Assembly (NCBI GenBank): GCA_017473165.1
Contig: JAFUNA010000022.1
Location: 21,471-85,470 of the forward strand
Direction: 5' to 3'
DNA: 64,000 nucleotides
Source: Clostridia bacterium
GTDB taxonomy: Bacteria > Bacillota > Clostridia > Oscillospirales > Acutalibacteraceae
Part shown: piece after piece, positions 19,089 through 63,860 of the stretch
How positions within the stretch are numbered: position 1 is the stretch's first letter
Layout: every line of letters begins with the position of its first letter
The notes under the pieces: model-generated
Database searches by the model: none
What the model was told of the DNA's origin: nothing
Seen by the model: only the letters and a program-made list of their open reading frames with translations
Program-made: the position numbers and the translations under genes

Positions 19089-19190
19089 ACTCGCCGCAGG
19101 CGAATATCACTTTCGGCAAAGCCGAAATATCACATCGCTTGCGATATATCACACAACGAAGTTGTATATAACATTGCAAAGCAATATTTA
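19089..19190 (+). repeat. ATATCAC hairpin array, copy 1
   Basis: Five small hairpins in series: CGCC-GCA-GGCG, TTTCGGCAAAGCCGAAA, ATCGCTTGCGAT, CAAC-GAA-GTTG and ATTGCAAAGCAAT, separated by ATATCAC, ATATCACA, ATATCACA and ATATAACA. The last hairpin ends three bases before the GGGAGGAAG Shine-Dalgarno of the gene at 19205, so the array would form most of its 5' leader. Confidence 0.85.
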
Positions 19191-19204
19191 CGGGAGGAAG
19201 ATAT

Positions 19205-20290
19205 ATGTACGAAGCTTATTTTCTCGGGTCAAGCGGCAAAAACGGATTTTTCTCATGCTTTTCACAGCTGACGCCGAAAATCGAAGGACAGTATACCTAT
19301 ATCATCAAAGGCGGTCCGGGTACGGGCAAATCAACGCTGATGCGTAAAATCGCCGATGAAATGGAGAAAAAAGACATCAACTGCGAAAGAATTTTCTGCT
19401 CCTCTGACCCCGATTCTCTTGACGGAGTTATTTTTCCGTCGCTTCGGGTCAGCATTTGTGACGGCACGTCACCCCACACTCTCGACCCCGATTATCCGGG
19501 CGCAACGGGAGAAATCGTCAACCTCGGGGAGTGCTGGGACAAGAAAAAAATCTATGAAAACAAAGAGAAAATTATTGAGCTGACGGATAAAAACAAAGCC
19601 TGCCACAAACGCAGCAGGCGGTTTATTGAATCTGCATTTTCAGTTTTCGGCGACGGCGAAAAAATCTGCCGTGACGCTCTTGACGAAAACCGTCTTATCC
19701 GTTACGCATCAAGGGTTTCGGCTCGTCACATCAAAAAGCCGTCGGGCAGGGTCGGGCTTGAAAAAATCAGATTGCTCGACGCAATTACGCCCAAGGGATA
19801 TTATTTTCTTTCCGAAACGGCGGAGTCGCTTTGCAGCGAAAAAATCGTTTTTGAGGACAGCTTCGGAGTTGCGGCGGCAAAGGTTATTGCCGAAATCCGC
19901 TCCTATGCCCTCGCATCGGGCTTTTCGGTTATTTCAAGCCCGTCGGTTTCAAACGACAACGAAATCCGCCATATTATCATAAAAGAATTATCTCTCGGCT
20001 TTTTTACTGCCGACAAGCTCTGCAATCTTGAAATTCAGCCAACAAAAACGGTTTCTCTGCGTCGGTTTTATTCCGCCGACATACTTGCCGCCCACAAGGC
20101 ACGGCTTGCATTTTCTTCAAAAGCGGCAAAAGAGCTGCTTGACGAGGCGGTCTGTGCACTCAAAATTGCAAAATCCGTTCATGACGATTTGGAAAAATGC
20201 TATATCGATGCCATGGACTACGGAAAAATTTCCGAAATCGGGAAATCCCTTTCCGAAAGAATATGGCAGAGCGAATGGTGGAGCGATTAG
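19205..20290 (+). CDS. P-loop ATPase (PRK06851-like)
   Basis: A 361-residue soluble protein with Walker A GGPGTGKST at 36-44 (KGGPGTGKSTLMRKIA). It resembles a Firmicute family of uncharacterised ATPases (PRK06851-like) that I recognise by the GSSGKNGFFSCF start and the P-loop context; the biological role is unknown. A strong GGGAGGAAG precedes the ATG. Its 3' end overlaps the convergent PLC-like gene by four bases. A hairpin array forms the upstream leader. Confidence 0.65.
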   Translation: MYEAYFLGSSGKNGFFSCFSQLTPKIEGQYTYIIKGGPGTGKSTLMRKIADEMEKKDINCERIFCSSDPDSLDGVIFPSLRVSICDGTSPHTLDPDYPGATGEIVNLGECWDKKKIYENKEKIIELTDKNKACHKRSRRFIESAFSVFGDGEKICRDALDENRLIRYASRVSARHIKKPSGRVGLEKIRLLDAITPKGYYFLSETAESLCSEKIVFEDSFGVAAAKVIAEIRSYALASGFSVISSPSVSNDNEIRHIIIKELSLGFFTADKLCNLEIQPTKTVSLRRFYSADILAAHKARLAFSSKAAKELLDEAVCALKIAKSVHDDLEKCYIDAMDYGKISEIGKSLSERIWQSEWWSD

Positions 20291-21177: not shown

Positions 21178-21180
21178 AGC

Positions 21181-22404
21181 TTACACCACCTGAAAAATAT
21201 AGAATTTAAGATAATCCGTTTCGGGAACATTCCAGAGAATCGGATGGTCACGGCATTGCTGACGCACCTCGATTTGCTTGAGCTGTACGCCTGCATCGGC
21301 GGCGGCGGAATGGAGCATCTTAACAAAAAGCTCGTTGTTCATGAAATGGGAGCAGGAGCAGGTTGCAAGGTAGCCGCCCCGTGGAAGGAGCTTCATTGCA
21401 CGGTAGTTGATTTCCTTGTAGCCCCTCTCCGCACCCTTAACGGTTTTGCGGCTTTTGGTGAATGCAGGCGGGTCGAGAATAATGAAATCATAGGGCTTTC
21501 CGCCTTTTGCCTCAAGCTCGGGGAGCAGGTCAAAAACATCGGCGGCAAGGAAATCCATTCTGCCGTCAAGACCGTTGCGGACTGCGTTTTCCCTTGCCAT
21601 TTCAACTGCAGTTTTCGAAACATCAACGGCGGTTACTCTTTCAGCACCGCCCATTGCGGCGTTGAGAGCGAATGAGCCCGTGTGAGTGAAGCAGTCGAGC
21701 ACCCTTTTGCCCTTTGCGAGCTGTGCAACGGTGAGTCGGTTATATTTCTGGTCAAGGAAAAAGCCTGTTTTCTGACCGTTTTCAACATCAACAAGATATT
21801 TTATTCCGTTTTCGGTGATTTCGGTAACGGCGGAATCGGGGTGGGGAATGGGCTCATACCAGCCCTTGTATTCCTCAAGACCCTCAAGCTTGCGGATTGC
21901 AACGTCATTACGCTCAAAAAGACCGCTGATTTCCTGCCCGTCGTCACGGAGAATTTTCACAAGGGTTGTGTAAATCATGTCCTTGATTTTTTCCATGCCG
22001 TAGGAGAGCACCTGCGTGACGATGATATCGGAAAATCTGTCAACCGTCAGACCCGGCAGACCGTCAGCCTCGCCGAAAACAAGTCGGCAGCATGAAAAAT
22101 CGCTGCCCATAACGGTTTTGCGGTAGTCGATTGCATATTTGAGGCGTCTTTCCCAGAAAGCGGGAGAAAAATTATCGTTTGCATTGGTTGAGAGCACACG
22201 GACACGGATTTTGCTGTTTTCGCTCAAAAAACCCGTGCCGAGATATGAGCCCTTTTGTGAAAGAACGTCAACAAGACAGCCGTTTTCAAATTCGCCGAAG
22301 GAGTCGGTTATTTCGGCGTCATAGACCCACGGATGACCCTTTTTGAGGGCAGCCTCCGCTTTTTTGGTGACGGTTACGATGGGGTAGTTTCGTTTGGATT
22401 TCAT
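21181..22404 (-). CDS. rlmI: 23S rRNA methyltransferase, RlmI/RlmL-type class I SAM enzyme
   Basis: A 407-residue protein with an N-terminal PUA domain (starting KKAEAALKKGHPWVYDAEI), a central EEHGI-like domain and a C-terminal Rossmann methyltransferase with VLDCFTHTGSFALNAAMGGA and the catalytic-loop FIILDPPAF. RlmI methylates a cytosine in 23S rRNA in E. coli; the exact site here is inferred. The ATG lies upstream of the PLC-like gene with a three-base gap between the two. Confidence 0.85.
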   Translation of the reverse strand: MKSKRNYPIVTVTKKAEAALKKGHPWVYDAEITDSFGEFENGCLVDVLSQKGSYLGTGFLSENSKIRVRVLSTNANDNFSPAFWERRLKYAIDYRKTVMGSDFSCCRLVFGEADGLPGLTVDRFSDIIVTQVLSYGMEKIKDMIYTTLVKILRDDGQEISGLFERNDVAIRKLEGLEEYKGWYEPIPHPDSAVTEITENGIKYLVDVENGQKTGFFLDQKYNRLTVAQLAKGKRVLDCFTHTGSFALNAAMGGAERVTAVDVSKTAVEMARENAVRNGLDGRMDFLAADVFDLLPELEAKGGKPYDFIILDPPAFTKSRKTVKGAERGYKEINYRAMKLLPRGGYLATCSCSHFMNNELFVKMLHSAAADAGVQLKQIEVRQQCRDHPILWNVPETDYLKFYIFQVV

Positions 22405-22489
22405 AGTTTTACCACTTTCGGTTGAATTTATATTGATTATAATAACATGATATAAGCTGTATTGTCAATTTTATATTTATTACGGCGGC

Positions 22490-22598
22490 TTGGGTCAAGC
22501 CGCCCTACAACTCGCCGCAGGCGAAAATCACTTTTGCGAAAGCAAAAATATCACATCGCTTGCGATATATAACACGGCGGCATAAGCCGTATATCACT
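22490..22598 (+). repeat. ATATCAC hairpin array, copy 2
   Basis: A GGCGGCTTGGGTCAAGCCGCC hairpin (22481-22501 region) leads into CGCC-GCA-GGCG, TTTTGC-GAAA-GCAAAA, ATCGCTTGCGAT and GGCATAAGCC, with AAATCAC, ATATCACA and ATATAACA spacers. It lies between two leftward genes and runs antisense to them, ending at the terminator of the lipoprotein gene. Confidence 0.85.
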
Positions 22599-22630
22599 AA
22601 AAAAGCACCCTGCGTTTGCAGAGTGCTTTC
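22599..22630 (-). terminator. Terminator of the lipoprotein gene
   Basis: AAAGCACCCTGC and GCAGAGTGCTTT pair around GTTT, with a six-base U-tract on the reverse strand and T-rich sequence on the forward strand. Confidence 0.88.
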
Positions 22631-22637
22631 TGTTTGA

Positions 22638-24958: not shown

Positions 24959-25051
24959 TAAAAGCAACTCCTTTCGAGGGCTTTCCCCTGTAACATTTTT
25001 ATTAATAATGCGGTTTTTATTTGACAACCGCTGAATTTCGGATTAAAATTA

Positions 25052-25375
25052 AGTGCAGAATGCAGAGTGAAGAGTGAAGAGTTAAGGGTCACTTAATATA
25101 AGTGAATAGTTAAAAGTGAATAGTGAATAGTTAAGGGTCTGCGACACAATTATATTTAATTGAGCGTGTAGGGGTTGGCGACTCGACAACCCGGGCAAGC
25201 TAAAGGCTTGCAATAAATTTTGTTATGCACCTGACGGTGCATTCGGGACGTTGAGGTCACCGTCCCCTACAGCTGAAATAAGATTTCACGGTTACAATCG
25301 GTCATAGGCGAAGCCTATCCGACACTTTGCACTTACAACTTTGAACTTTGCACTTAACACAAAGATTCCTTTTAA
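25052..25375 (-). repeat. Composite nested repeat upstream of the VanY-like gene, containing 103-bp unit copy 2
   Basis: The 103-bp unit occupies 25168-25270 in reverse orientation. It is flanked on the left by GTGAATAGTTAA-type runs and GGGTCTGCGAC, and on the right by GGTCATAGGCGAAGCCTATCC and ACTTTGCACTT. The whole block is the reverse complement of the block at 32711-33003. It fills the 454-bp gap before vanY-like and ends about 40 bp from its start codon. Confidence 0.85.
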
Positions 25376-25412
25376 CTCTTTATTATTCAAAAAAAGAAAA
25401 CGAGGTATAGAA

Positions 25413-26267: not shown

Positions 26268-26469
26268 ATGATGAATGATGAATGATGTGCACCTTCGGTG
26301 CATGATGTGTTGCTTCGCAACATTTCGGAAGGGCTTCGCCCTTACTCATTTAAATTCGGGTGTGGGCAAAGCCCACCCTTAACTCGCCGAAGACGAATAT
26401 CACTTTTGTCGAAGACAAAAATATCACATTGCGAAGCAATATATCACACGGCATAAGCCGTATATCACT
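26268..26469 (+). repeat. ATATCAC hairpin array, copy 3 (longest; with TTCG-loop hairpins)
   Basis: This 202-bp gap between convergent genes is almost entirely hairpins. After ATGATGAATGATGAATG come GTGCAC-CTTCG-GTGCA, TTGCTTCGCAA and AAGGGCTTCGCCCTT, then GTGGGC-AAA-GCCCAC, CTCGCCGAAGACGA, TTTTGTC-GAA-GACAAAA, ATTGC-GAA-GCAAT and CGGC-ATAA-GCCG with ATATCAC(A) spacers. It ends inside the 3' end of the sugar transferase gene's flank. Confidence 0.85.
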
Positions 26470-27060
26470 TCATATTCTGCGTTTATTATGCGGCTCGCCG
26501 CCTTCGGATATGTTTTCTCTTTTAAGGACAACGGCAACCGTTTTAATCATAATTTTAATATCGAACAAAATGCTCTGTTTTTCGACATATTCCTTGTCAA
26601 ACAGGGCTTTTTCTTCGTCGGTGAGCATATCTCTGCCGTTAACCTGTGCCCAGCCCGTGATGCCGGGTCGCACGGAAAATACGCCGTAATCCCTGCGGAG
26701 ATTGCGGATTTCCTTTTCCTCGGGAATGAGGGGTCGGGGACCGACAAAGCTCATGTCGCCGATGAGCACGTTGAAAAGCTGGGGAAGCTCGTCAAGGCTT
26801 GTTTTACGCAGGAATCTGCCGCTTTTTGTGATTTGAAATTCCGCTTCGGTAAGGTCGCTTGTTGCGGTGTTGCGGGTGTCGTTTTTCATTGTACGGAATT
26901 TATAGATATAGAAAAGCTTATTATCCTTTTTGACCCTGTATTGCTTGAAAACAATGGGTCCGCCATCGTCAATCAGCACGATTAAGCCGATTAAAACAAA
27001 CAACGGTGAAAGGATTATGATGAGCAGAAGGCTCACCGTGAAATCAAAAAACCGTTTCAT
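26470..27060 (-). CDS. Bacterial sugar transferase (monotopic phosphoglycosyl transferase)
   Basis: A 196-residue small PGT that would transfer a phospho-sugar from a UDP-sugar to undecaprenyl phosphate, starting a surface glycan. It has an N-terminal re-entrant hydrophobic helix (about 8-31), KFRTM (54-58), the catalytic Asp90-Glu91 dyad in TSLDELPQ, GDMSFVGPRP (101-110) and RPGITGWAQVNGR. It lies 9 bp behind the cyclase gene. No glycan cluster surrounds it, which is unusual for this family. Confidence 0.9.
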   Translation of the reverse strand: MKRFFDFTVSLLLIIILSPLFVLIGLIVLIDDGGPIVFKQYRVKKDNKLFYIYKFRTMKNDTRNTATSDLTEAEFQITKSGRFLRKTSLDELPQLFNVLIGDMSFVGPRPLIPEEKEIRNLRRDYGVFSVRPGITGWAQVNGRDMLTDEEKALFDKEYVEKQSILFDIKIMIKTVAVVLKRENISEGGEPHNKRRI

Positions 27061-29181: not shown

Positions 29182-29381
29182 GTAGGGGTTGGCGACCCGA
29201 CAACCCGCGCAGACCGCAGGGTCGATATCCGAAGTGACCTTGAAAGTTCATCTGAATTTCCGCTTAAATCTTAAACGTAGGGCGGCTTGACCCCAAGCCG
29301 CCGTGGATTACGGTTGTTTTTCGGCGGGATGAGGTCATCCCGCCCTACGCTTGATTTCGATAGTACATTGTATTATATAAT
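29182..29381 (+). repeat. Composite hairpin repeat upstream of the RING-protein gene
   Basis: It contains a partial GTAGGGG unit (GTAGGGGTTGGCGACCCG, then GCAGACCGCAGGGTC) and a 72-bp unit bounded by GTAGGGC and GCCCTAC (29277-29348), with GGCGGCTTG-ACCC-CAAGCCGCC and GGCGGGATGAGGTCATCCC. The 72-bp unit recurs inverted at about 56.01-56.08 kb and in part at 47.39 kb. Confidence 0.75.
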
Positions 29382-29508
29382 CGGGCGTGGGCAACGCCCA
29401 CCCGAAACTCGCCGTCAGGCGAATATCACTTTTGCGAAAGCAAAAATATCACATTGCAAAGCAATATTTCACACGGCATAAGCCGTATATCACATTCCGA
29501 AGGAATAT
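29382..29508 (+). repeat. ATATCAC hairpin array, copy 4 (six modules)
   Basis: GTGGGC-AAC-GCCCAC, CGCCGTCAGGCG, TTTTGC-GAAA-GCAAAA, ATTGC-AAA-GCAAT, CGGC-ATAA-GCCG and TTCC-GAA-GGAA in order, with ATATCAC, ATATCACA, ATTTCACA and ATATCACA spacers. It ends a few bases before the AAAGGAG of the next gene. Confidence 0.88.
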
Positions 29509-29528
29509 AAAAAAGGAGATGATTGCCC

Positions 29529-30611
29529 GTGAACTACGATAACCTGCCTTGCCCTGTGTGCGGAAAGCCCATGGCGGAGGGTGACGATATCGTTGTCTGC
29601 CCTGTGTGTGCAACTCCCCAGCACAGAGAATGCTGGATAGAGCGGGGCAGATGTGCAAACGATGACCTTCATTCATCGGGCTATGTTTGGAAAAAAGAAA
29701 ATAAAACGGAAGTAAAAACCGAAGAAACGGCGGCAAATCCCGATAACCGCATCTGCCATATCTGCGGCAGCGAAAATCCCGCCGACAGCCTTCATTGCGG
29801 CAACTGCGGAGCACTTTTCGGAGAGGAAGTAAAGCCCGATGACAACTCCCCCAAAAAATGTGCATACTGCGGCAGGGATAACGACAGCGATGCACTTCAT
29901 TGCAAATATTGCGGTGCACCCGTGGGCGGTCAGAGCTTTTATAAGAATAATCCCTTCCTTTCGGGGTCGGGAATTGCCGAGGATGAGCTGATTGCGGGTC
30001 AGAAGGCAACGGATGTTGCGTTTTTTGTTCAGGCGAGCTCAAAAAAATATCTGCCCAAGTTCAAAAAATTCGCAAACGGAAAGAAAATTTCTTTCAACTT
30101 TGCCGCATTTTTCTTTGCACCCTACTGGTTTTTCTACAGAAAGCTCTACAAAGCGGGAATTTTTGCAATTGTTATTCTTGCAACCGCATCAATGGTGCTT
30201 TCGGGCTTCACAAATCAGATGAATGCGGCGGCAAACGAATATCTCAATGTATATGAGAATATAGAAATAACCGAGGAAACAACAGACGAGGAATACAAGG
30301 CAGCGGAAGCGGAACTGCTGAAAGCGGCGAAAGCCATGAGGGAAAAGGCAACAAAGCCGATGTTGATTGTTGGCGGAGTGCAGCTTGTTCTTCATCTGCT
30401 TTTCGCTCTGACTGCCGACAGGATTTATTATAAAAAGGTTTTTGCCGACCTCAAGGAAATTCAAAACGCCGTTGAGGATGACAATTTCAAGAAAATGATG
30501 ATTACCCGCCGAGGCGGACTTTCGCCTCTTGCCTTCGCCGCAAGCATTATGGGCAACAATATGCTGCTCATGGCACTTGACTACGTTGCGGCACTGATTA
30601 ACGGAATGTAA
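29529..30611 (+). CDS. Prokaryotic RING-finger/zinc-ribbon membrane protein
   Basis: About 360 residues with three zinc modules followed by membrane helices. Residues 7-45 (CPVCGKP...CPVCATPQHRECW) fit the prokaryotic RING finger family 1 pattern, and two CxxC-x(10-12)-CxxC zinc ribbons follow (CHICGSE...CGNCG and CAYCGRD...CKYCG). The C-terminal part resembles DUF2628: SFNFAAFFFAPYWFFYRKLYKAG, then two or three hydrophobic segments. The role is unknown; RING-type ligase activity is not claimed. I use the GTG at 29529, ten bases after AGGAG; a TTG two codons earlier is equally possible. Confidence 0.72.
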   Translation: MNYDNLPCPVCGKPMAEGDDIVVCPVCATPQHRECWIERGRCANDDLHSSGYVWKKENKTEVKTEETAANPDNRICHICGSENPADSLHCGNCGALFGEEVKPDDNSPKKCAYCGRDNDSDALHCKYCGAPVGGQSFYKNNPFLSGSGIAEDELIAGQKATDVAFFVQASSKKYLPKFKKFANGKKISFNFAAFFFAPYWFFYRKLYKAGIFAIVILATASMVLSGFTNQMNAAANEYLNVYENIEITEETTDEEYKAAEAELLKAAKAMREKATKPMLIVGGVQLVLHLLFALTADRIYYKKVFADLKEIQNAVEDDNFKKMMITRRGGLSPLAFAASIMGNNMLLMALDYVAALINGM

Positions 30612-30662
30612 AATATAAAATTGCAAAGCAATATATAACACGGCACAAGCCGTATATCACTT
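30609..30662 (+). repeat. ATATCAC hairpin array, copy 5 (short)
   Basis: Two modules, ATTGC-AAA-GCAAT and CGGC-ACAA-GCCG, with an ATATAACA spacer. It starts at the stop codon of the RING-protein gene and ends about 10 bp before the GGAGG of galU. Confidence 0.8.
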
Positions 30663-32697: not shown

Positions 32698-32710
32698 GAG
32701 TTAAATAAAA

Positions 32711-33003
32711 TAAAGTGCAAAGTTCAAAGTGGTAAGTGCAAAGTGTCGGATAGGCTCCGCCTATGACCGATTATAACCGTGAAATCTTATTTCAGCCGTA
32801 GGGGACGGCGTCCTCGACGTCCCGAATGCACCGTCAGGTGCATAACAAAATTTATTGCAAGCCTTTAGCTTGCCCGGGTTGTCGAGTCGCCAACCCCTAC
32901 ACGCTCAATTAAATATAATTGCGTCGCAGACCCTTAACTATTCACTATTCACTTATATTAAGTGACCCTTAACTTTGCAATTTGCACTCTGCACTTTACA
33001 CTT
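32711..33003 (+). repeat. Composite nested repeat with 103-bp unit copy 3
   Basis: The left flank AAGTGCAAAGTTCAAAGTGG and right flank (ACTTTGC...CACTTTACACTTA) are inverted. Inside them are GGATAGGC-TCC-GCCTATGACC and GTCGCAGACCCTTAAC, and in the centre a 103-bp GTAGGGG...CCCCTAC unit (32798-32900). The block is the reverse complement of that at 25.05-25.38 kb. It occupies nearly all of the 373-bp gap before the fusion gene. Confidence 0.88.
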
Positions 33004-34968: not shown

Positions 34969-36459
34969 ATGCAAGACAAGAAATATGTCGGCAAAAAAGA
35001 GCTGTGGATGTACGCTCTCGGTGCGGGCGGACAGGGCATGATTTATGCCATGATGTCCAGCTACATCAGCGACTACTATGTTAATGTTCTTCAGCTTCCC
35101 CTTATGTTTGTTCTCGTGCTCATGCTCGCTGCAAGAGTGTGGGACGCAATCAATGACCCCATGATGGGCATGATTGTTGACAGACGCACAATGAAAAAGG
35201 GCAGAATGAAGCCCTATATTATCATGGCAACCCCCATTATCGCCGTTCTGACATTACTTATGTACCTGAGCCCCGATATGGACAAAGCTCCCCTCATGAT
35301 ATTCTCCGCAGTTGTTTATGTTCTCTGGGGTATGGCTTACACAATGGCTGACGTTCCTTTCTGGACCATTCCCAACGTGCTCACTCCCAACTCAAAAGAG
35401 AGAAGCGACGTTATCTCCTTCACAAAGATTATCAACAGCATCGGCTCGGCACTTCCCGAGGTGCTTTTCCTTGCAATTCCCCTTATTCTCAATGCGTTCT
35501 ACGGAAAGTTCGGCAACGAGCCCAATCCCCTTGATTTTGAAAAGAAAAAGTATTTTCTCATTGCACTTTTTGCCGTTGTTATCGGCGGAATTATGTATGT
35601 TAACTGCTATTTCCACATCAAGGAAAGGGTTAACCTGCCCAACAAGAAAAAAGTTCCCGGTCAGCCCGGCAGCCTTTCAAGAATTTTCCATTGCAAGCCC
35701 CTTATGCTTGTTGTTCTGATGGGTATTTTCTCAAGCGGCAGATATCTTGTTCAGGCGGCTGCAATCCACGTTGCACGTTACTCCTTCTATATCGGACCCG
35801 AAAATCCCTCACAGGCTGATATCCTTAACAGCATCAGCCTTGTTAAAACGATTTTCCAGGTCTGCACAATTGTCGGTATGTTCGGCACAACGCTCATCAT
35901 GCCCATGCTCATGAAGAAGTTTGACTATAAGAAAATTGTTATCACAACCTGCCTTGCAGGCTTTGCTGCAAGCGTAATCACAACGGCTATCGGCTACGCA
36001 ACCGAGCTTTCAAGCATTTATATTCTTGCTCCCTTCATCATGATTCAGTCAATTCCCCTTGGCGTAATCAACGTTATTTCCTATGCGATGATTTGCGACA
36101 GCCTTGACTATATGGAGCTTACAACAGGTGTCAGAGAAAACGGTCTCGGCTCGGCTTGCCAGGGCTTCATCAACAAAATCGGCAACGCATTCTCAACCTG
36201 CGGAATCATTGTTCTTTATATGGCAATCGATATGGACCCCGCCGCAATGCTTTCAAAGGAAGCAATTATGGCTGCGGTTGATGTTGATTTCGGCCAGAGA
36301 TTTGCAATGTTTACCCTTGTGTCGCTCCTTCCCGGTGTCAGCATGCTTCTTTGCTCAATCCCCATGTTCTTCTACAAAATTGCTGGCAAGAACAAGGAAA
36401 AGATGCTTGCCGAACTCAAAGAAAAGAGAGAAAAAGAAGGCATGGTTATTGCTGAATAA
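34969..36459 (+). CDS. GPH-family sugar:cation symporter (MFS)
   Basis: A 496-residue protein with about twelve membrane helices. WDAINDPMMGMIVDR near the second helix is the typical glycoside-pentoside-hexuronide:cation symporter motif. It would import a sugar or glycoside with Na+ or H+. GAAAGGAAAG lies upstream of the ATG. It follows the fusion oxidoreductase by 112 bp in the same direction, so the two may form a uptake-and-oxidation pair. The stop codon lies in the loop of a GCTGAATAAATTCAGC hairpin. Confidence 0.88.
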   Translation: MQDKKYVGKKELWMYALGAGGQGMIYAMMSSYISDYYVNVLQLPLMFVLVLMLAARVWDAINDPMMGMIVDRRTMKKGRMKPYIIMATPIIAVLTLLMYLSPDMDKAPLMIFSAVVYVLWGMAYTMADVPFWTIPNVLTPNSKERSDVISFTKIINSIGSALPEVLFLAIPLILNAFYGKFGNEPNPLDFEKKKYFLIALFAVVIGGIMYVNCYFHIKERVNLPNKKKVPGQPGSLSRIFHCKPLMLVVLMGIFSSGRYLVQAAAIHVARYSFYIGPENPSQADILNSISLVKTIFQVCTIVGMFGTTLIMPMLMKKFDYKKIVITTCLAGFAASVITTAIGYATELSSIYILAPFIMIQSIPLGVINVISYAMICDSLDYMELTTGVRENGLGSACQGFINKIGNAFSTCGIIVLYMAIDMDPAAMLSKEAIMAAVDVDFGQRFAMFTLVSLLPGVSMLLCSIPMFFYKIAGKNKEKMLAELKEKREKEGMVIAE

Positions 36460-36468
36460 ATTCAGCAG

Positions 36469-36523
36469 TGATATACAACTTCGTTGTGTGAAATATTGCT
36501 TTGCAATGTGAAATTTTCGGCGA
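36469..36523 (-). repeat. ATATCAC hairpin array, copy 6 (reverse orientation)
   Basis: GTGATATA, CAAC-TTC-GTTG, TGTGAAAT, ATTGC-TTT-GCAAT and TGTGAAAT read on the + strand, the reverse complement of modules 3 and 4. It starts about ten bases after the symporter stop. Confidence 0.82.
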
Positions 36524-36526
36524 ATT

Positions 36527-36629
36527 GTAGGGGACGGCGACCCCGACGTCCCGAATGCACCGTCAGGTGCATAACAAAAGATATTGCAGACCTATGGTCT
36601 GCCCGGGTTGGCGACTCGACAACCCCTAC
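36527..36629 (+). repeat. 103-bp hairpin unit, copy 4
   Basis: Exactly 103 bp from GTAGGGG to CCCCTAC. Its third stem is GCAGAC/GTCTGC as in copy 1, and its fourth hairpin loop is inverted (GGCGACTCGAC) relative to the TGTCGAGTCGCC of other copies. It ends 32 bp before the bipA start. Confidence 0.88.
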
Positions 36630-39386: not shown

Positions 39387-39951
39387 AAACTGGGAACAGC
39401 TCAAATCCGATTGCATGAAGTGCAAAAAATGCCCTCTCGGCGAAACAAGAACAAATCTTGTTTTCGGAGTGGGCAATGAAAACGCAGAGGTTATGTTTAT
39501 CGGCGAGGGACCGGGTGAAAACGAGGATTTGCAGGGCGAGCCCTTCGTTGGCAGAGGCGGAAAGCTTCTTGACAAATTCCTTGAAGCCGTTGACCTTGAC
39601 CGCAAAAAGAATATCTATATTGCAAACATGGTTAAGTGCCGACCCCCGAAAAACCGTGACCCTCTCCCCGAGGAGCAGGATTGCTGCATTGAGTGGCTGC
39701 GTGAGCAGACAAGGCTCATCAGGCCGAAAATTATTGTTTGCCTCGGCAGAATTTCGGCACAGAGGCTCATTTCAAAGGACTTCAAGGTAACGCAGCAGCA
39801 CGGACAGTTCATCGAAAAGGGCGGAATCCTCTTTATGGGCACATTCCACCCCGCCGCACTTCTGCGAAATCCCAACCAGAAGCCCGATGCACTTGAAGAT
39901 TTTCTTGCCCTTCAGCGAAAAATCAAGGAAATCTGCGAACACACATATTAA
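39379..39951 (+). CDS. Family 4 uracil-DNA glycosylase (Fe-S)
   Basis: A 190-residue enzyme that removes uracil from DNA. Cys12, Cys15 and Cys18 in DCMKCKKCPLGETR supply part of the 4Fe-4S site; GEGPGENEDLQGEPFVGRGGKLLD is the catalytic and uracil-binding region, and FHPAALLRNP is the late conserved motif. The ATG at 39379, inside the ribF end, has AAGGTGA upstream. The stop codon TAA shares bases with the AAGTGCAAAGT repeat that follows. Confidence 0.92.
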   Translation: MYENWEQLKSDCMKCKKCPLGETRTNLVFGVGNENAEVMFIGEGPGENEDLQGEPFVGRGGKLLDKFLEAVDLDRKKNIYIANMVKCRPPKNRDPLPEEQDCCIEWLREQTRLIRPKIIVCLGRISAQRLISKDFKVTQQHGQFIEKGGILFMGTFHPAALLRNPNQKPDALEDFLALQRKIKEICEHTY

Positions 39952-40391
39952 GTGCAAAGTTCAAAGTGATAAGTGCAAAGTGTCGGATAGGCTCCGCCTA
40001 TGACCGATTATAACCGTGAAATCTTATTTCAGCCGTAGGGGACGGCGTCCTCGACGTCCCGCATATTTAGCACAAAATTTCGGGAGGGGTGACCCCTCCC
40101 CTACAATGCAAAATGAAATAATAAAGAATATTGAATAGATAATAAATAATATTTTGACGGTAGGGCGGGATGACCTATTTCAGCCGTAGGGGACGGTGAC
40201 CTCAACGTCCCGAATGCACCGTCAGGTGCATAACAAAATTTATTGCAAGCCTTTAGCTTGCCCGGGTTGTCGAGTCGCCAACCCCTACACGCACATTTTA
40301 ATATAATTGCGTCGCAGACCATTAACTTTGCACTTTGCATTTTGCACTCTGCACTTTAGTTTGCAGCGGTTTGATTGTTAAAGTGTATTTG
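39950..40391 (+). repeat. Long composite repeat A, with 103-bp unit copy 5
   Basis: From the flank AAGTGCAAAGTTCAAAGTG it continues with GGATAGGC-TCC-GCCTATGACC, a 70-bp GTAGGGG...CCCCTAC unit (40035-40104), an AT-rich stretch with AATAATAAAGAATATTG, a truncated GTAGGGCGGGATGACC, the 103-bp unit (40185-40287), GTCGCAGACC, TTTGCACTTTGC, and GTTTGCAGCGGTTTG. The same order, nearly base for base, is found at 55.80-56.30 kb, where an additional 56 bp follows GGGATGACC. No gene is present in this 442-bp gap. Confidence 0.88.
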
Positions 40392-44469: not shown

Positions 44470-44713
44470 TATAAGCGTAAAGTGAATAGTGAAAAGTGAA
44501 GAGTGAAGAGTGAATAGTTAATGGTCTGCGACGCATTTATATGCGGGACGTCGAGGACGCCGTCCCCTACGGTTGAAATAAGTTTTCACGGTAGGGGCTG
44601 CCTCCCTTTTAAGGGAGGGGGACCGCTTGCGGTGGAGGGATTTCTCATCCGCCTAAATAAAATCGGTCACAGGCGGAGCCTATCCGAAACTATTCACTTT
44701 TAACTTTTAACTG
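44470..44713. repeat. Composite repeat between gltX and glnS
   Basis: GTGAATAGTGAAAAGTGAAG-type runs on the left and ACTATTCACTTTTAAC on the right form inverted flanks. Inside are GGTCTGCGACGC, a reversed GGGACG/CGTCCC hairpin (about 44545-44570), GGTAGGGGCTGCCTCCC with AAGGGAGGGGGACCGC, and GGTCACAGGCGGAGCCTATCC. The right part matches 18.99-19.08 kb. It is also the right end of the glnS-gltX gap. Confidence 0.75.
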
Positions 44714-44714
44714 T

Positions 44715-46376
44715 TCACTGAAAATTATTAATCGCTTCGCTGAGTCTTGCCTTTATTTCATCCTCGCCGAGGAGCTGCATGATTGAATAAAGGTCGGGAG
44801 TGTTTCTTCTGGAAGTAAGTGCTATGCGGATAACCGTTGAAACGTCGCCGACATGACCCTTGAAGGCTTCGGGATTCTTCTTGAATTCCTTAACGTTGGG
44901 TGTGAAGCCGAGGGGCTCGCACATATCCTTGATTCTTGCAAACCATTGGTCTTTATCGTCTGCAAGTGAGAATTCGTTCATGTATTTTTCAACTATTGCC
45001 GCAGCATCAGCCTTTGAAATGTTTTCGGGCAGCGTGTAATCTGCGGTGTAGATTGAATTGTAGAAGTAGGAAACGTAATCCTTGACCTCGCTCCATTTTG
45101 CAATATCCTTGCGGGGCTTGGGATTTTCTCTGTCGATGTTTACAACCGCCGTTGAGAATTCGGGGTCGGCGGTAAAGATTTCGTAAAATTCGGGGTCATA
45201 GACCTTTGCCCATGCGGCAACGTTATCGTAAACCTGCTGTGCGGTCATAACCGAAATAACGTTTTTGCTCACGTCATTGAGCTTCACAAGGTCGAAAAGA
45301 CAGCCGCTCGAGCTCATTTTTTTGAGATTGAAGGGGAATTTGGAAATATCTTCCTTGGGATTTGCCTTTCTCCAGTCCTCAAAGTTTGAGTTGATGAGGG
45401 TCAGAAGATATTCAAGCACGCTCTCCTTGGGGAAGCCGCCCTCAACAAAATAGCTGACTGCAGCCTCGGGGTCTTTTCTCTTTGAAAGCTTTCTCTTGTC
45501 GCCCGTTTCCTCGTCGATTTTGAGCACCTGGGGAGTGTGGGCATATTTCGGAACTCTGTAGCCGCAAGCCTTGAAAAGCTCGATGTGCTTGGGCACGGAG
45601 GAAATCCATTCCTCGCCTCGGATAACGTGGGTTGTTCTCATGAAATGGTCATCACAGGCGTGGGCAAAATGGTAAGTGGGAATTCCGTCGGACTTAAGAA
45701 GAACCTCGTCGATTATGTTTTCGGGCATCTCGATTTTGCCTCTGATAACGTCGTCAAAGATAATTTTCTTTTCGCCGCTGTTGCCCGAACGCAGACGGAG
45801 CACCCAGGGCTTGCCGTCGGCAATATTCTTTTCGATTTCTTCAAGGCTTAAGTCACGGCATTTTGCCCATTTTCCGAAGTAGCCCCAGATAAGAGCATCG
45901 CCCTTGGTCTGCTCCTCACGGATTGCGGAAAGCTCGTCCGCCGTGCAGAAGCAGGGATATGCAAGACCTTTTTCAACAAGGCTCTTGCCGATTGTCTGAT
46001 AGATTTCGGCACGCTGGCTTTGTGTGTAAGGACCGTAAGCACCCTTTTCGGTGCCGAAGCCCGTTACGCCCTCGTTGAATTCAACGCCGAAGTAGTCAAA
46101 GCCGCTGATGATTGCGGAAACACCGTCGTCAACCTCACGCTTTTTGTCGGTGTCCTCGATGCGGAGATATGCAACGCCGTTTGTTGCCTGTGCGGTGAGC
46201 ACGTCAACAAGTGCGCCGAAAAGTCCGCCGATATGGAGATAGCCCGTGGGGGAAGGAGCAAAACGGGTCACTCTTGCACCCTCGGGAAGATTTCTTTCGG
46301 GATAAAGATTTTCGTAATAGTCGGGAGTTTTGTCGATTTGGGGAAACAGAAGCTCCGCAAGTTTTTTGTAATCCAA
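44715..46376 (-). CDS. gltX: Glutamyl-tRNA synthetase
   Basis: A 553-residue synthetase. FAPSPTGYLHIGGLFGAL carries HIGG at 48-51, DTDKKREVDDG and YTQSQRAEIY follow, and KLSKRKDPEA is the KMSKS loop. It charges tRNA-Glu. The start is a TTG with CAGGTG seven bases upstream. Because a separate GlnRS is encoded next door, this enzyme is probably discriminating, but that is inference. Confidence 0.95.
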   Translation of the reverse strand: MDYKKLAELLFPQIDKTPDYYENLYPERNLPEGARVTRFAPSPTGYLHIGGLFGALVDVLTAQATNGVAYLRIEDTDKKREVDDGVSAIISGFDYFGVEFNEGVTGFGTEKGAYGPYTQSQRAEIYQTIGKSLVEKGLAYPCFCTADELSAIREEQTKGDALIWGYFGKWAKCRDLSLEEIEKNIADGKPWVLRLRSGNSGEKKIIFDDVIRGKIEMPENIIDEVLLKSDGIPTYHFAHACDDHFMRTTHVIRGEEWISSVPKHIELFKACGYRVPKYAHTPQVLKIDEETGDKRKLSKRKDPEAAVSYFVEGGFPKESVLEYLLTLINSNFEDWRKANPKEDISKFPFNLKKMSSSGCLFDLVKLNDVSKNVISVMTAQQVYDNVAAWAKVYDPEFYEIFTADPEFSTAVVNIDRENPKPRKDIAKWSEVKDYVSYFYNSIYTADYTLPENISKADAAAIVEKYMNEFSLADDKDQWFARIKDMCEPLGFTPNVKEFKKNPEAFKGHVGDVSTVIRIALTSRRNTPDLYSIMQLLGEDEIKARLSEAINNFQ

Positions 46377-47530: not shown

Positions 47531-47538
47531 TTTCTAAT

Positions 47539-47650
47539 AGGGTGTGCGCAACGCCTACCCTCAACTCGCCGTAAGGCGAATATCACTTTTGTCGCAGACA
47601 AAAATATCACATTGCGAAGCAATATATCACACAACGGAGTTGTATATCAC
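47539..47650 (+). repeat. ATATCAC hairpin array, copy 7
   Basis: GGTGTGCGCAACGCCTACC, CGCCGTAAGGCG, TTTTGTC-GCA-GACAAAA, ATTGC-GAA-GCAAT and CAAC-GGA-GTTG with ATATCAC, ATATCACA and ATATCACA spacers. Beyond it, 47651-47770 holds GGCGGC and GCCGCC pieces around an otherwise plain stretch before the rpsO promoter. Confidence 0.87.
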
Positions 47651-47806
47651 TTATATATTATGGCGGCCGCCATGTGTCACCCGGCTCCCCATGGGCATTT
47701 CTGCCACCTGTGACGGCAGCCGCCTTGTTTTCGGGAAGCAATTGCTCCCATAATCATTCTATGCAGGCTGCGGAAATCGGGCATAGAAATAAATTTCAAA
47801 AAAGTC

Positions 47807-50843: not shown

Positions 50844-50889
50844 ATAAAGCAAAAAACAAAATCAATGCAACAGCTTCACTTGCTTCCCT

Positions 50890-50976
50890 TAACTCGCCGC
50901 AGGCGAATATCACTTTTGCGGATGCAAAAATTTCACATTGCAAAGCAATATTTCACACAACGAAGTTGTATATCAC
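50890..50976 (+). repeat. ATATCAC hairpin array, copy 8
   Basis: CGCC-GCA-GGCG, TTTTGC-GGAT-GCAAAA, ATTGC-AAA-GCAAT and CAAC-GAA-GTTG with ATATCAC, ATTTCACA and ATTTCACA spacers. It lies between the terminators of two convergent genes. Confidence 0.87.
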
Positions 50977-50978
50977 TG

Positions 50979-55631: not shown

Positions 55632-55670
55632 ATATTCCTTCGGAATGTGATATACGGCTTATGCCGTGTG
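55632..55670 (-). repeat. ATATCAC hairpin array, copy 9 (short, reverse)
   Basis: TTCC-TTC-GGAA, TGTGATATA and CGGC-TTAT-GCCG, then GTGTGAA, upstream of the SEDS gene and within its likely leader. A single GTAGGGG hairpin follows at 55685-55711. Confidence 0.8.
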
Positions 55671-55796
55671 AATTTTTGAAAATTGTAGGGGACGGCGTCC
55701 TCGACGTCCCGCAAAATCTGCCGTATTTCCATTTTACCATATAATCACATAAATTTCAATTTAATTATACTTTAATTAACAGCAATGCACTTTGTT

Positions 55797-57736: not shown

Positions 57737-57738
57737 TC

Positions 57739-57762: not shown

Positions 57763-57789
57763 CGAAAAAAGATTTATCGGAGATATATC

Positions 57790-58965
57790 ATGAAAGAGAT
57801 AATTTTAATCAAAAACGGTGAGCTTGCACTCAAAGGTCTTAACAGACGCACCTTTGAGGATATGCTTGTAAAAAATATGCGACGCAGGCTCGAATCCGCA
57901 GGAAAGTTCAATTTTACAATCGCCCAGTCAACAATCGTTGCCGAGCCCGTTGACGAAAGCGTTGACCTTGACGAAGCGGTTGAAAGAATAAAGAAAATTT
58001 TCGGCATTGCAGGTTTTTCAAGAGCTGCAGCCGTTGAAAAGGATATGGAAACAATTCTGAGAAGTGCCGAAGAATACCTGGCTCCCCAGCTTCTCGGAAT
58101 CAGAAGCTTCAAGGTTGAGGCAAAGCGTTCCGACAAAAAATTTCCTCTCAATTCCCCCGAAATCTGCAGGGAAACGGGCGGTTATCTTTTAAGAAAATTT
58201 TCTCATCTCGTTGTTGACGTTCATAACCCCGATATGGTTGTGACCGTTGAAATCAGAGATTCTCACGCATATATCCACGGCAAACAGATTAAGGGTGCGG
58301 GCGGAATGCCCACGGGCTCCGCAGGCAGAGCAGCCGTGCTTATTTCGGGCGGAATCGACAGCCCCGTTGCTGCATATATGATGGCAAAAAGAGGTCTGGA
58401 GCTTATCGCCGTTCACTTTGCATCGCCCCCCTACACAAGCGAAAGAGCAGAGCAGAAGGTGCATTCGCTCCTCAAGCAGGTCAGCAAGTATTCGGGCAGA
58501 ATTGCTCTGTGGGTTGTACCCTTCACCGAAACACAGGAGCTTATAAAGGACAACTGCCCCGAGGATATTTTCACCGTCATCATGCGAAGAATGATGATGA
58601 GAGTTGCACAGAAAATTTCCGCAAGGGAAAGAGCCGGTGCAATGATAACGGGCGAAAGCGTCGGTCAGGTTGCAAGCCAGACGATGCCCGCAATTGCCTG
58701 CACGGATGCGGTTTGCGAAATGCCCGTATTCAGACCCCTTATCGGCATGGATAAGGACGAGGTTGTTGCAATTTCAAGAAAAATCGAAACTTTTGATATA
58801 TCAATTCTTCCCTATGAGGACTGCTGCACGGTGTTCACACCCAAGCATCCCAGAACAAAGCCCTCCCTTGACTATGTTGAGGAATGCGAAAAGGCACTTG
58901 AAGTGGACAGGCTGGTCAACGAAGCCGCAGATAATGCAAGACTGGTTGTAATCAGCGCATATTGA
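57790..58965 (+). CDS. thiI: tRNA 4-thiouridine synthetase ThiI
   Basis: A 391-residue enzyme that adenylates U8 of tRNA for thiolation. It has the ferredoxin-like and THUMP domains, then a PP-loop SGGIDS at 186-191. The C-terminal rhodanese domain of E. coli ThiI is absent, as in Bacillus, consistent with direct sulfur transfer from the adjacent desulfurase. The ATG at 57790 has ATCGGAGA upstream. Confidence 0.95.
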   Translation: MKEIILIKNGELALKGLNRRTFEDMLVKNMRRRLESAGKFNFTIAQSTIVAEPVDESVDLDEAVERIKKIFGIAGFSRAAAVEKDMETILRSAEEYLAPQLLGIRSFKVEAKRSDKKFPLNSPEICRETGGYLLRKFSHLVVDVHNPDMVVTVEIRDSHAYIHGKQIKGAGGMPTGSAGRAAVLISGGIDSPVAAYMMAKRGLELIAVHFASPPYTSERAEQKVHSLLKQVSKYSGRIALWVVPFTETQELIKDNCPEDIFTVIMRRMMMRVAQKISARERAGAMITGESVGQVASQTMPAIACTDAVCEMPVFRPLIGMDKDEVVAISRKIETFDISILPYEDCCTVFTPKHPRTKPSLDYVEECEKALEVDRLVNEAADNARLVVISAY

Positions 58966-59090
58966 TATTCCTGCGGAATGTGATATACGGCTTATGCCGT
59001 GTGATATATTGCTTCGCAATGTGAGATTTTCGGCTTTGCCGAAAGTGATATTCGCCTTACGGCGAGTTAAGGACGGGCTCTGCCCGTACC
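58966..59090 (-). repeat. ATATCAC hairpin array, copy 10 (complete, reverse)
   Basis: Reading left to right: TTCC-TGC-GGAA, CGGC-TTAT-GCCG, ATTGC-TTC-GCAAT, TTTCGGCTTTGCCGAAA, CGCC-TTAC-GGCG and ACGGGC-TCT-GCCCGT, with TGTGATATA, TGTGATAT, TGTGAGAT and GTGATAT spacers. This is the full module order of the other arrays in reverse complement. GGAGCGAAGCGACCCTTAAC and CACTTTTC/CACTATTCAC runs follow to 59158. Confidence 0.88.
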
Positions 59091-59171
59091 CGTTTATATA
59101 ATCGGAGCGAAGCGACCCTTAACTTTTCACTTTTCATTTTTCACTATTCACTTAAAAAAGGAGAAACGGAA

Positions 59172-61399: not shown

Positions 61400-61677
61400 A
61401 GCGTGGCGAACATAATCCGAACCTGCCCGAAAGCGAGTCTTTTCAGCTCTTTTCGGCGTTTCGGATTTAGAAAGGCGTCAGCCTGTCGTCATCCTCAACA
61501 GCCAAAAATCATCTGAAAATCCTTCGCTTTCGGGTCGAAGATTTTTTGTCGTGAGGATTTTTGGCAATTCAAGGCACAAAACGCAGCAAATCCTTTGCGG
61601 ATTTGCGAGTATTTTAACATAGAAGTGACGAAAATAATCCGACAAAAAACACGGTTAGGATTGTGTTCGCCACGCTT
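61399..61677. mobile_element. MITE-like element with long terminal inverted repeats
   Basis: The left end AAGCGTGGCGAACATAATCC... (61399-61423) and right end ...GGATTGTGTTCGCCACGCTT (61653-61677) are inverted copies of about 25 bp with two mismatches. Internal inverted pairs include GCCAAAAATC (about 61500) with GATTTTTGGC (about 61555), and AAATCCTTCG with CGAAGATTT. The element has no transposase and fills the gap between the two sortase genes. No clear target duplication is seen. A structured RNA is an alternative. Confidence 0.65.
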
Positions 61678-61697
61678 TAGCATGGAGGATTTGAAAA

Positions 61698-63791
61698 ATG
61701 CCTAATAACGAAAATAACAACCAGAACAAAAAACTTCCCGACGGATTAAGCTCAATTGCCGATGATGAGGCGATAACCGAAATCGATCTCGGCGATTTCC
61801 TTGAGGAGAGCACAAAATCGGCTCCCCTTTTCGAAGGATTCCATGAGGATATCGAAAACACCGAAAAGAGCCTTGAGAGCGACCTTCAGAATCTCTATGA
61901 CGATATCATGAGCAGCGGTCCCGAAACAATCGTGCCAAAGCCCATGTCCGTTTTGACCGAAAAAGAGTCTCCCAAGAGTGCTCTGGACGAGCTCTGGATG
62001 AATCCCGAGGACTATTTTGATGCCGATATTCCCGTTGTTTCCCTTGACGAGGATGAAATTGAGGAGGAAATTCCCGAGGAAGCCTTCTTCAATCCCGAAG
62101 CCGCAGAGGAAGCAGCACCCGAAGAGGATTTTGAGAGAAACAGCATTTTCAGCCTGATTGATTCCCTCAAGTCCGAGAGCGACGTTGAAACCGGATTCAG
62201 CGAAATTCTTTCCGAAATCGAATCAAACGAGGGCATCGCAACAACAATCGACGGCAGCCTTGCCGATGCGCAGCGTCTTGTTTCGCAGGACTACACTCCC
62301 GAAGAGAGCTTTGAGGAGGTTTCCTTCGGCGATGAGGAAATTGATTGGAATGATATCGAAACGGAGGACGAAGCTCCCGCCGAGGAATATGCTCTTCCCG
62401 TTGAGGACGAAGCTCCCGCAGAAGAAACTGCAGAGATTTCCGTTGATGATATCGTAAAGCAGTATGCAACCGCAAAGCCCGAGGCTGCATCCGCACCTTC
62501 ACCCGTTGCACCTGCGGCAGAGGCATCGTTTGATGTTGACAACATTGACACAAATTCAGAGGAATTTGACCGTGAGCTTGCATTTCTTCTCGGCGACAAA
62601 GCTGCAGAAGCCGCAGGGGAAGAAGCTTCCGCACAGACAGGCTTTGTTATCAATGTGCCCGATGACGGCAATGACTACGAAAAAGCCGCCGCAGCTCCCG
62701 AAAAGCTTTACGAGGCTGCTCCCATGAGCACAATTCCCGTTGAAGAAAGCCTTGAAATCGTTACCGAGGACGACGGCAAGAAGAAGAAAAAGAAAAAAGA
62801 TAAGAAAAATAAGAATAAAGACAACGCACAGGCAGCGGAAAAGGAAGGCAAGAAGTCGGGCGGTGCAGGCGAGGTTGTGAGAAAGATTATTCTTTCCGTT
62901 TCAATCATCACAATCATTGTCAGCTGCGGAATCCTTGTCAACACCTACTTCATCGAGCCCATGAGATTCAAGTCGGGCAACGATGACCTTGTTGCCCAGA
63001 TGCAGGAAAACATCAACGCAAACGGCGATTCAACCGAGATTGCCGATGAAGTAAAGCAGCAGGCAGCGGTTGATTTCCCCGAGGGAATGCTTGCGAAATA
63101 TGCCCAGCTTTATGCAGCAAACGATGATTTGAGAGGCTGGATTTCAATTCCCGGCTTCGACATCAACCTTCCCATCGCACAGGGCACGGATAACAACTTC
63201 TATCTCAAGAAGGATATCTACGGAAAATATACAACCTACGGTGTACCCTTCTTTGACTACAGAATGACGGATTTCAAGAATCTTCACAAGAATACCGTTG
63301 TTTACGGTCACAATATGCGTCATGACGACCTCATTTTCGGTATGCTCGAAAACTACCGCTTCATCGAGGCAGGCTTCCAGAAAGCTCCCGTTATCGAATG
63401 TAACACAATCTACGGCGATTTCACATGGTTTGTCTATGCCGCATTCATTTCAAACTCCGACGCAAGTCAGGATAACGGCTATCTTTTCCCCTATAACTTT
63501 ATCGATGTAAGCGACGGAAAGTTTGCGGATTACATTGCCGAAATCGACAAGAGAAAATTCTACACAACAGGTGTTGACATTCAGCCCACCGACAAGATTC
63601 TGACCCTTTCAACCTGCTGCTATGATTTTGAGGATGCAAGACTTGTTGTTGTTGCAAGACTCAGAAGAGAGGGTGAAAGCGTTGCGGTTGACACCTCAAG
63701 AGCATATCTCAACGACGATATCAAGTATCCCCAGATTTGGTACGACGTAAACAAAAAGACAAACAACCACGCATCTGACCCCAGATGGTAA
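61698..63791 (+). CDS. Class B sortase with long acidic cytoplasmic N-terminal domain
   Basis: A 697-residue protein in three parts. Residues 1 to about 355 are strongly acidic and apparently disordered (Glu, Asp, Ala, Pro; repeated EEDEAPAEE and EDEAPAEETAE). Residues about 356-390 are a Lys-rich stretch (KKKKKKKDKKNKNKD). A membrane helix at about 396-416 leads to an external SrtB domain (about 450-670) with His538 in VYGHN, Cys640 in TLSTCC and Arg648 in ARLVVVAR. Typical SrtB is 220-320 residues, so the N-terminal half is an addition. GGAGG lies upstream of the ATG. Confidence 0.88.
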   Translation: MPNNENNNQNKKLPDGLSSIADDEAITEIDLGDFLEESTKSAPLFEGFHEDIENTEKSLESDLQNLYDDIMSSGPETIVPKPMSVLTEKESPKSALDELWMNPEDYFDADIPVVSLDEDEIEEEIPEEAFFNPEAAEEAAPEEDFERNSIFSLIDSLKSESDVETGFSEILSEIESNEGIATTIDGSLADAQRLVSQDYTPEESFEEVSFGDEEIDWNDIETEDEAPAEEYALPVEDEAPAEETAEISVDDIVKQYATAKPEAASAPSPVAPAAEASFDVDNIDTNSEEFDRELAFLLGDKAAEAAGEEASAQTGFVINVPDDGNDYEKAAAAPEKLYEAAPMSTIPVEESLEIVTEDDGKKKKKKKDKKNKNKDNAQAAEKEGKKSGGAGEVVRKIILSVSIITIIVSCGILVNTYFIEPMRFKSGNDDLVAQMQENINANGDSTEIADEVKQQAAVDFPEGMLAKYAQLYAANDDLRGWISIPGFDINLPIAQGTDNNFYLKKDIYGKYTTYGVPFFDYRMTDFKNLHKNTVVYGHNMRHDDLIFGMLENYRFIEAGFQKAPVIECNTIYGDFTWFVYAAFISNSDASQDNGYLFPYNFIDVSDGKFADYIAEIDKRKFYTTGVDIQPTDKILTLSTCCYDFEDARLVVVARLRREGESVAVDTSRAYLNDDIKYPQIWYDVNKKTNNHASDPRW

Positions 63792-63792
63792 A

Positions 63793-63860
63793 CATATTCC
63801 TTCGGAATGTGAAATATACCTGCGGCGAGTTTCGGACGGGCTCTGCCCGTACCCGATTAT
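63793..63860 (-). repeat. ATATCAC hairpin array, copy 11 (deleted)
   Basis: TTCC-TTC-GGAA and TGTGAAATATA are joined directly to CCTGCGGCGAG and ACGGGC-TCT-GCCCGT, so the middle modules present in copy 10 are missing. This is what a deletion between modules would leave. Confidence 0.75.

Follow-up and report, generated by a model that had tools for sequence, protein, structure and literature searches.

Two described systems come closest to the repeats reported here. Gut-1 is filed in Rfam as RF01706, a 77-nt model, and in the accessible part of Weinberg et al. (2010) it appears as a noncoding RNA of the human gut, marked as certain RNA and as 'human gut only'. REPINs, built from repetitive extragenic palindromic (REP) sequences, occur as inverted pairs, which account for 93% of 430 doublets in the available portion of PMC3116915. 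We analyzed a window of 64,000 nucleotides, i.e., the whole stretch from position 21,471 to 85,470 of contig JAFUNA010000022.1 (assembly GCA_017473165.1), from a Clostridia bacterium of the Acutalibacteraceae (order Oscillospirales), in which eleven intergenic spacers carry arrays of small hairpins separated by the heptamer ATATCAC. The initial annotation of this DNA, made from the letters alone, could not name a described family. Nevertheless, six of these arrays match RF01706 along its whole length with scores above the gathering cut-off, the other five remaining below it, and all six matches lie on the strand opposite to ATATCAC. An existing family thus matches, but the Gut-1 label leaves the modules unexplained and the modeled strand is the opposite one. 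Gut-1 is a known sequence family that has probably been filed wrongly as RNA and would consist of modular, strand-oriented, REPIN-like DNA repeats. On balance, we favor the view that the arrays are dispersed non-coding repeats of this kind, occurring chiefly within a single order of gut Clostridia.

All eleven spacers named initially were present and read as stated. ATATCAC occurs 28 times in the window, while 100 dinucleotide shuffles gave a mean of 4.00 (sd 1.97, maximum 11) and none reached 28. Across the whole genome the pattern ATATCAC-N4..30-ATATCAC gave 34 matches, and the same pattern read backwards gave none. The fixed series of modules that had been proposed (CGCC/GGCG, a TTTTGC type, an ATTGC type, CGGC or CAAC, with or without one more) was found in seven arrays, at 19.09, 22.5, 26.4, 29.4, 47.6, 50.9 and 58.97 kb, but not in the four truncated copies at 30.6, 36.5, 55.6 and 63.8 kb, the last of which retains a single complete module and lacks an exact ATATCAC. 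The spacer heptamer is variable (ATATCAC, ATTTCAC, ATATAAC, ATACCAC). Ahead of most full arrays stand a leader hairpin and one further heptamer (e.g., CCTTAAC or CCGAAAC), which were absent from the first description. The arrays are as follows, the strand being that which reads ATATCAC.

19088..19190, +, Gut-1-type array after the heptamer CCGAAAC, with hairpins TCGCC, TTTCGGC, ATCGC, ACAAC and ATTGC; below the Rfam cut-off
22509..22597, +, Gut-1-type array of four hairpins; below the Rfam cut-off
26353..26470, +, leader hairpin GTGGGC/GCCCAC, CCTTAAC and four-hairpin array; RF01706 58.7 bits on the opposite strand
29378..29510, +, leader hairpin, CCGAAAC and five-hairpin array; the array and the GTAG-type repeats on its left make up a block of some 330 bp that is missing in 10 aligned relatives (RF01706 scan, site alignment)
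30609..30660, +, truncated array of two hairpins
36468..36530, -, truncated array of two hairpins; RF01706 65.2 bits at 36441-36519 on the opposite strand
47535..47652, +, leader hairpin, CCTCAAC and four-hairpin array; orthologous site empty in four of seven aligned relatives (RF01706 scan, site alignment)
50887..50978, +, CCTTAAC and four-hairpin array, followed by a terminator-like hairpin (RF01706 scan)
55632..55672, -, truncated array of two hairpins
58957..59094, -, five-hairpin array, CCTTAAC and leader hairpin; RF01706 54.4 bits; flanking genes few bases apart in eight of 10 relatives
63780..63863, -, leader hairpin and remnant array with one complete module

Stem complementarity was judged by shuffles, by a backwards control pattern and by mismatch counts, and the claim that stems stay complementary while changing between copies proved far above chance in the first two. 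In a first set of 185 unique spacer-bounded inserts, the outer stem was perfect over 4 bp or more in 140, compared with about 0.7% of shuffled inserts. An enlarged set from 271 sources (the window and loci, some overlapping) yielded 348 unique inserts, of which 236 were perfect hairpins (stem of at least 4, loop of 3 to 6) with 138 distinct stems, and a further 26 had one mismatch; the spacer read backwards gave 29 inserts and no perfect hairpin. Within the window it is whole modules that differ between copies, and pair-by-pair compensation was seen at one orthologous hairpin only, outside the window.

The hairpins are also strongly asymmetric between strands. In the 223 loops of 3-4 nt, read on the ATATCAC strand, GNA outnumbers TNC by 84 to 1 and GNNA outnumbers TNNC by 60 to 0 (144 to 1 together), while AAA occurs 15 times and TTT four times. 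In 214 of the 236 perfect hairpins the loop is closed by C-G. In stems with one mismatch, G.T was found 12 times and A.C twice (binomial p=0.013), the other 12 being different mismatches. These loops and the mismatch asymmetry indicate that folding probably takes place on the ATATCAC strand. In DNA, GNA and GNNA loops closed by C-G are exceptionally stable, as expressed by the d(cGNAg)/d(cGNNAg) rule. The third base of the GNNA loops is a purine in 35 cases (GNRA) and a pyrimidine in 25 (GNYA), and such a free position fits the DNA rule better than the GNRA rule of RNA, which is an argument rather than a proof. Concerning the size of the arrays, 43 chains were classed as single, although some of those with three spacers are composite halves overlooked by the script; in 26 of the chains there are four strict spacers, and all but two of these 26 are preceded by a hairpin and a heptamer (24 chains). 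CCTTAAC is the commonest such heptamer (10 of 36, the script taking any seven bases).

Comparison with relatives revealed sites with and without an array. The block of about 330 bp at 29.1-29.5 kb, comprising GTAG-type repeats, leader and array, is missing in all 10 aligned relatives, one of which (G036) has an unrelated short stretch there. Both flanks of this interval were found in 19 relatives, and in the nine beyond the aligned ten it is 220-340 bp shorter than here by our arithmetic. The Gut-1 array at 58.97 kb is likewise missing in all 10 genomes compared, eight having few bases between the genes and two (G027 and G022) having a leader and heptamer arrays. The 47.54-kb site, found in seven of 10 genomes searched, is empty in G002, G010, G036 and G019, while it holds another array in G021, a leader with one module in G023 and a leader with other heptamers in G022. 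Since most relatives are without the array, gain is favored over loss. A graded series was met between smpB and ssrA, where 14 loci were viewed and four were not comparable (another upstream gene in G032, G021 and G022, a contig end in G036). The remaining 10 show an array (G000, G006), a lone hairpin (G031, G019, G023) or nothing (G016, G002, G024, G001, G027), SmpB being confirmed by Pfam in G002 and G000 and recognized by its reading-frame end in the others. The terminal hairpin reads GAAACAAC/GTTGTTTC, GAAGCAAC/GTTGCTTC or GAAACAGC/GCTGTTTC, i.e., two changes, each compensated, at one orthologous place. With zero, one or many modules at orthologous sites, array growth or loss becomes directly testable in strain collections.

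Larger composites were seen in loci of six other families of the order (G039, G046, G047, G056, G058, G059), and one in the window's own genome (L021). Their layout is an outer hairpin, a P1-loop-P2 segment, three hairpins with GTGAAAT spacers, P3, and three hairpins with ATTTCAC spacers. The head-to-head order holds in 26 of 26 grouped composites (one of which, L064, may be two neighboring arrays), and 22 of them span 150-178 nt between the outer spacers. Inverted doublets at a fixed distance are thus an abundant unit in those families, and copies in the own genome are mostly single. Exact pairing between P1 and P3 extends over nine or more bases in 18 of the 26 composites; P1 also matches the neighboring P2 in 17 of these 18, so that the three segments change together. 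When types were crossed, the P1:P3 match averaged 5.0 (264 pairs) against 10.8 for own pairs, with a crossed maximum of 12, some types being alike. In 19 of the 26 composites the preferred loops could be followed on each half's own strand (30 of 38 in the right half, 21 of 26 in the left, with no TNC or TNNC), and a single transcript could thus not show both halves in the preferred form. A hairpin of at least 9 bp, in several cases terminator-like, stands just outside the P1 side in 16 of 26, and a promoter-like site lies beside nine of 26 against a shuffled rate of 0.20, which is suggestive only; the two sides are possibly swapped for the eight composites oriented by a P1:P3 match of at most 8 bases. 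In the window, a tolerant detector that still misses some arrays visible otherwise found five neighboring pairs in the order -+, none in the order +- and one --, the latter including a probable false match at 6210 inside an open reading frame (ORF).

Several composites follow within a few bases of the terminator-like hairpin of a tRNA gene (L030 and L067, tRNA-like by eye) or of a transfer-messenger RNA (tmRNA) gene (L050, L078 and L125, at tmRNA 3' ends). In L117 (G059), 3' of ssrA, a second stretch resembling tmRNA ends follows the tmRNA in tandem. In L064, L065 and L068 (G039), arrays apparently stand, by eye, directly before the ribosome-binding sites of opposite-strand genes, several of them on one 13.9 kb contig.

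As for distribution, RF01706 was found in 44 of 60 genomes (the own genome, 36 of the same genus and 23 of the same order) at E <= 0.001 and above the cut-off in 38, with 23 copies in the own genome and 48 in another of 1.4 Mb (G059), while five of 398 genomes drawn evenly from the phylum matched, the own genome included; both surveys used stricter filters, by which weak matches were lost. A Gut-1 match in an E. coli control genome was below the cut-off. An exact pattern was found in 13 stretches of named genomes, all metagenome-assembled genomes (MAGs) titled Clostridia, Clostridiales, Bacillota, Eubacterium or Oscillospiraceae, and goat or deer gut is named in 10 of the 13 titles. Arrays often lie at MAG contig ends (e.g., L042, L050, L079, L081), as would be the case for repeats that break assemblies, and copy numbers may thus be underestimates. 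A contig predicted as viral in IMG/VR (L193, 120-200) carries near its end a G+C-rich ATATCAC-spaced array after a GTAG-type hairpin and a CCTTAAC heptamer. Phage origin was considered as well; one degenerate pattern matched one IMG/VR contig, and by that pattern phages are not the main carriers. No paper treating Gut-1 as a DNA repeat was found in the literature searched, which covered few subscription papers.

A related form dispenses with hairpins. The window holds eight arrays of heptamers ending (A/C)A(C/T) with no hairpins between them, seven of which have five heptamers. All eight begin with CCTTAAC, CATTAAC, CGTTAAC or CCGAAAC after a short leader that by eye resembles a hairpin. Heptamer runs number 13 in total, five being of another type, compared with 0.15 in mononucleotide shuffles. 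The heptamer features listed for the window are:

59098..59153, +, heptamer array CCTTAAC TTTTCAC TTTTCAT TTTTCAC TATTCAC, which faces the Gut-1 array before it in head-to-head order
44475..44718, two head-to-head heptamer arrays around a core that shares a 128-nt block with 18964-19091
39947..40354, head-to-head heptamer arrays on either side of GTAG-tagged hairpins
32710..33003, head-to-head heptamer arrays
25048..25355, head-to-head heptamer arrays

These arrays are like the Gut-1 arrays in their leaders and first heptamer (CCTTAAC and variants) and differ in having no hairpins between heptamers. The two copies of the shared block have 89% identity, the one at 18964-19091 leading into a Gut-1 array and the one at 44564-44691 into heptamers; at 58.98-59.15 kb the two kinds stand head to head; and in G027 and G022 a heptamer array takes the Gut-1 array's place at the 58.97-kb site, the leader and second array being kept. 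The heptamer arrays may thus represent a hairpin-less form of the same element. They resemble the short tandemly repeated repeats of cyanobacteria. An integron attC-like reading was weighed by eye against the attC consensus and dropped. Heptamer arrays of another type, with four to five repeats of approximately (T/G)CG(G/T)AAT, were noted at 15735, 34858 and 47283 on the + strand and at 15920 and 3530 on the - strand, and similar runs stand directly before ssrA in G021 and G022.

It had also been suggested that the repeats are REP-like and might be recognized by a Y1 REP-associated tyrosine transposase (RAYT). Their behavior agrees with this in dispersal, polymorphic sites and head-to-head order, but not as regards the enzyme. 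Y1_Tnp (PF01797) is present in 33 of the 60 genomes, with four genes in the own genome. Gut-1 and Y1 occur together in 26 genomes, Gut-1 alone in 18, Y1 alone in seven and neither in nine (Fisher p=0.38; Spearman 0.15, p=0.25). Among the 12 genomes with at least nine copies, Y1 is lacking in six (copy numbers 48, 33, 27, 21, 11 and 9) and present in the other six (31, 23, 21, 17, 13 and 11). The Y1 count is zero in G059 (48 copies), G039 (33), G047 (27) and G007 (21), G059 and G047 being only 85-86% complete, and it is three in G046 (31) and four in G000 (23). Moreover, the hairpins at the four Y1 loci of the own genome (L017-L020) are GTAG-tagged and form inverted pairs at three of these loci, while a Gut-1 spacer pair is found at none. 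Given the lack of association and of spacer pairs at these loci, Y1/RAYT was rejected as a general partner of the arrays. As to a partner gene between neighboring arrays, nothing transposase-like was noticed in two of 17 stretches, the ORFs of one having been read by eye and those of the other listed untranslated, without a Pfam search. The GTAG-tagged hairpins and solitary RAYT-like Y1 genes co-occur in the own genome, window examples of the hairpins being those at 18906, 36527, 40035 and 55685. The Y1 gene of L017 (1279-1839) has a GTAG hairpin at 1450 inside its reading frame, translated GVLDVP, and a second inverted copy just behind the gene. The main text of PMC3733652 contains no mention of 'Clostridi' or 'Firmicutes'.

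Regarding gene context, the 32 single groups placed with a simple ORF caller comprise 14 in tandem, eight in convergent and five in divergent gaps, with five unassigned. Nine of the ten gene products beside window arrays belong to known ordinary families and one had no match. The arrays are strings of hairpins without T runs and lie in all three kinds of gap, unlike intrinsic terminators, which are single G+C-rich hairpins with a T run behind them at the 3' side of genes. The original view of a modular intergenic repeat family, placed in both orientations relative to genes and being neither a simple terminator nor a leader, is supported.

The DNA repeat that we favor would consist of consecutive heptamers that end in (A/C)AC, each separated from the next by a small hairpin, most often a leader heptamer followed by four spacers and four hairpins, each hairpin presumably shaped for folding on the ATATCAC strand. 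The head-to-head composite would be the spreading form, and lone arrays would be half or decayed units. Hairpins may form in single-stranded DNA exposed during replication or repair, where a putative enzyme would recognize them and move, add or remove modules; stems would be free to change, since nothing beyond the loop, its C-G closing pair and the heptamer would matter. Any host role, such as insulation of neighboring transcripts or mRNA stability, would be secondary. A more specific proposal, which we put forward tentatively and with considerable doubt, is that these are Y1-independent REPIN-like mobile elements whose unit of exchange is a single heptamer-bounded hairpin of the single-stranded DNA type. 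A putative single-strand nuclease or recombinase would read heptamer and loop on one strand and rebuild arrays module by module, and the recurrent five heptamers, whether or not hairpins stand between them, would reflect an oligomeric single-strand-binding protein looping the hairpins out. Several observations weigh against a mobile DNA repeat. No mobilizing enzyme was identified, only sites without an array and no excision intermediate were seen, and no clear target duplication was apparent by eye at the junctions, so that insertion is not strictly separable from repeated loss. The literature search found no paper stating a stability rule for C-G-closed GNA/GNNA loops in DNA. In addition, the energy difference between strands is small (DNA parameters, n=127: no difference in 81, the ATATCAC strand being lower in 45 and its complement in one), the excess of G.T over A.C fell from 11:0 to 12:2 as the sample grew, G.T tolerance and purine loops are compatible with RNA too, GNRA making up 35 of the 60 GNNA loops, and transcripts probably run through some arrays (those at 58.97 kb, where close same-direction genes flank the array, and at smpB-ssrA).

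The last points bear on the possibility that the arrays are RNA elements of untranslated regions, with the hairpin strings of the ATATCAC strand serving to protect or process mRNA and the heptamers acting as sites for a single-strand RNA-binding protein. The mismatch bias and purine loops on one strand, the position of several arrays within probably transcribed intervals and the compensatory changes at the orthologous smpB-ssrA hairpin would all suit it. We nonetheless consider it unlikely, given that in tandem gaps lone arrays have ATATCAC nearly evenly on the template (8) and coding (6) strands, that the halves of composites show their preferred loops on opposite strands and often have a long, at times terminator-like hairpin outside P1, and that the third loop position is free, contrary to the GNRA rule. 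A free-standing noncoding RNA, as filed in Rfam, is highly improbable; the certain-RNA mark in the accessible part of Weinberg et al. (2010) and the six matches above the cut-off speak for it, but loops and mismatches favor the strand opposite to that of Rfam, and there are many copies per genome, polymorphic sites and no fixed gene context. It is also conceivable, yet in our opinion quite unlikely, that the complementarity has no function, template switching during replication keeping quasi-palindromes perfect and heptamer slippage making arrays grow or shrink. The graded smpB-ssrA states, the hairpin-less arrays with similar leaders and the diversity of 138 stems agree with such a process, which alone does not predict the GNA/GNNA loops, the C-G closing pairs, the G.T excess or the strict head-to-head order.

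Among known systems, the BOX elements of Streptococcus pneumoniae are modular intergenic repeats with a varying number of modules, these being longer and fixed in sequence. REP sequences and REPINs, as presented in the available portions of PMC3116915 and PMC3733652, share with the arrays their nature as small oriented intergenic hairpins, single or in inverted doublets and without coding capacity, and the arrays are indeed short palindromic repeats, extragenic, dispersed and present in both orientations. They differ in that the hairpins are flanked by ATATCAC-type heptamer spacers and not by a GTAG or CGTC tag, that an element contains several hairpins whose stems change freely, and that there is no consistent Y1 partner; if our reading is correct, they would add a class of repeats that behaves like REPINs without their transposase. 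Gut-1 consists of the same sequences as the window arrays. As filed, and as far as the accessible part of its description goes, it is a noncoding RNA on the opposite strand and restricted to the human gut, whereas here it is a modular multi-copy repeat, present also in goat and deer gut, included in longer composites and found at polymorphic sites. A curated RNA family would then represent one part, read on the opposite strand, of a DNA repeat that is modular and polymorphic, and the annotation of its matches in gut metagenomes would change.

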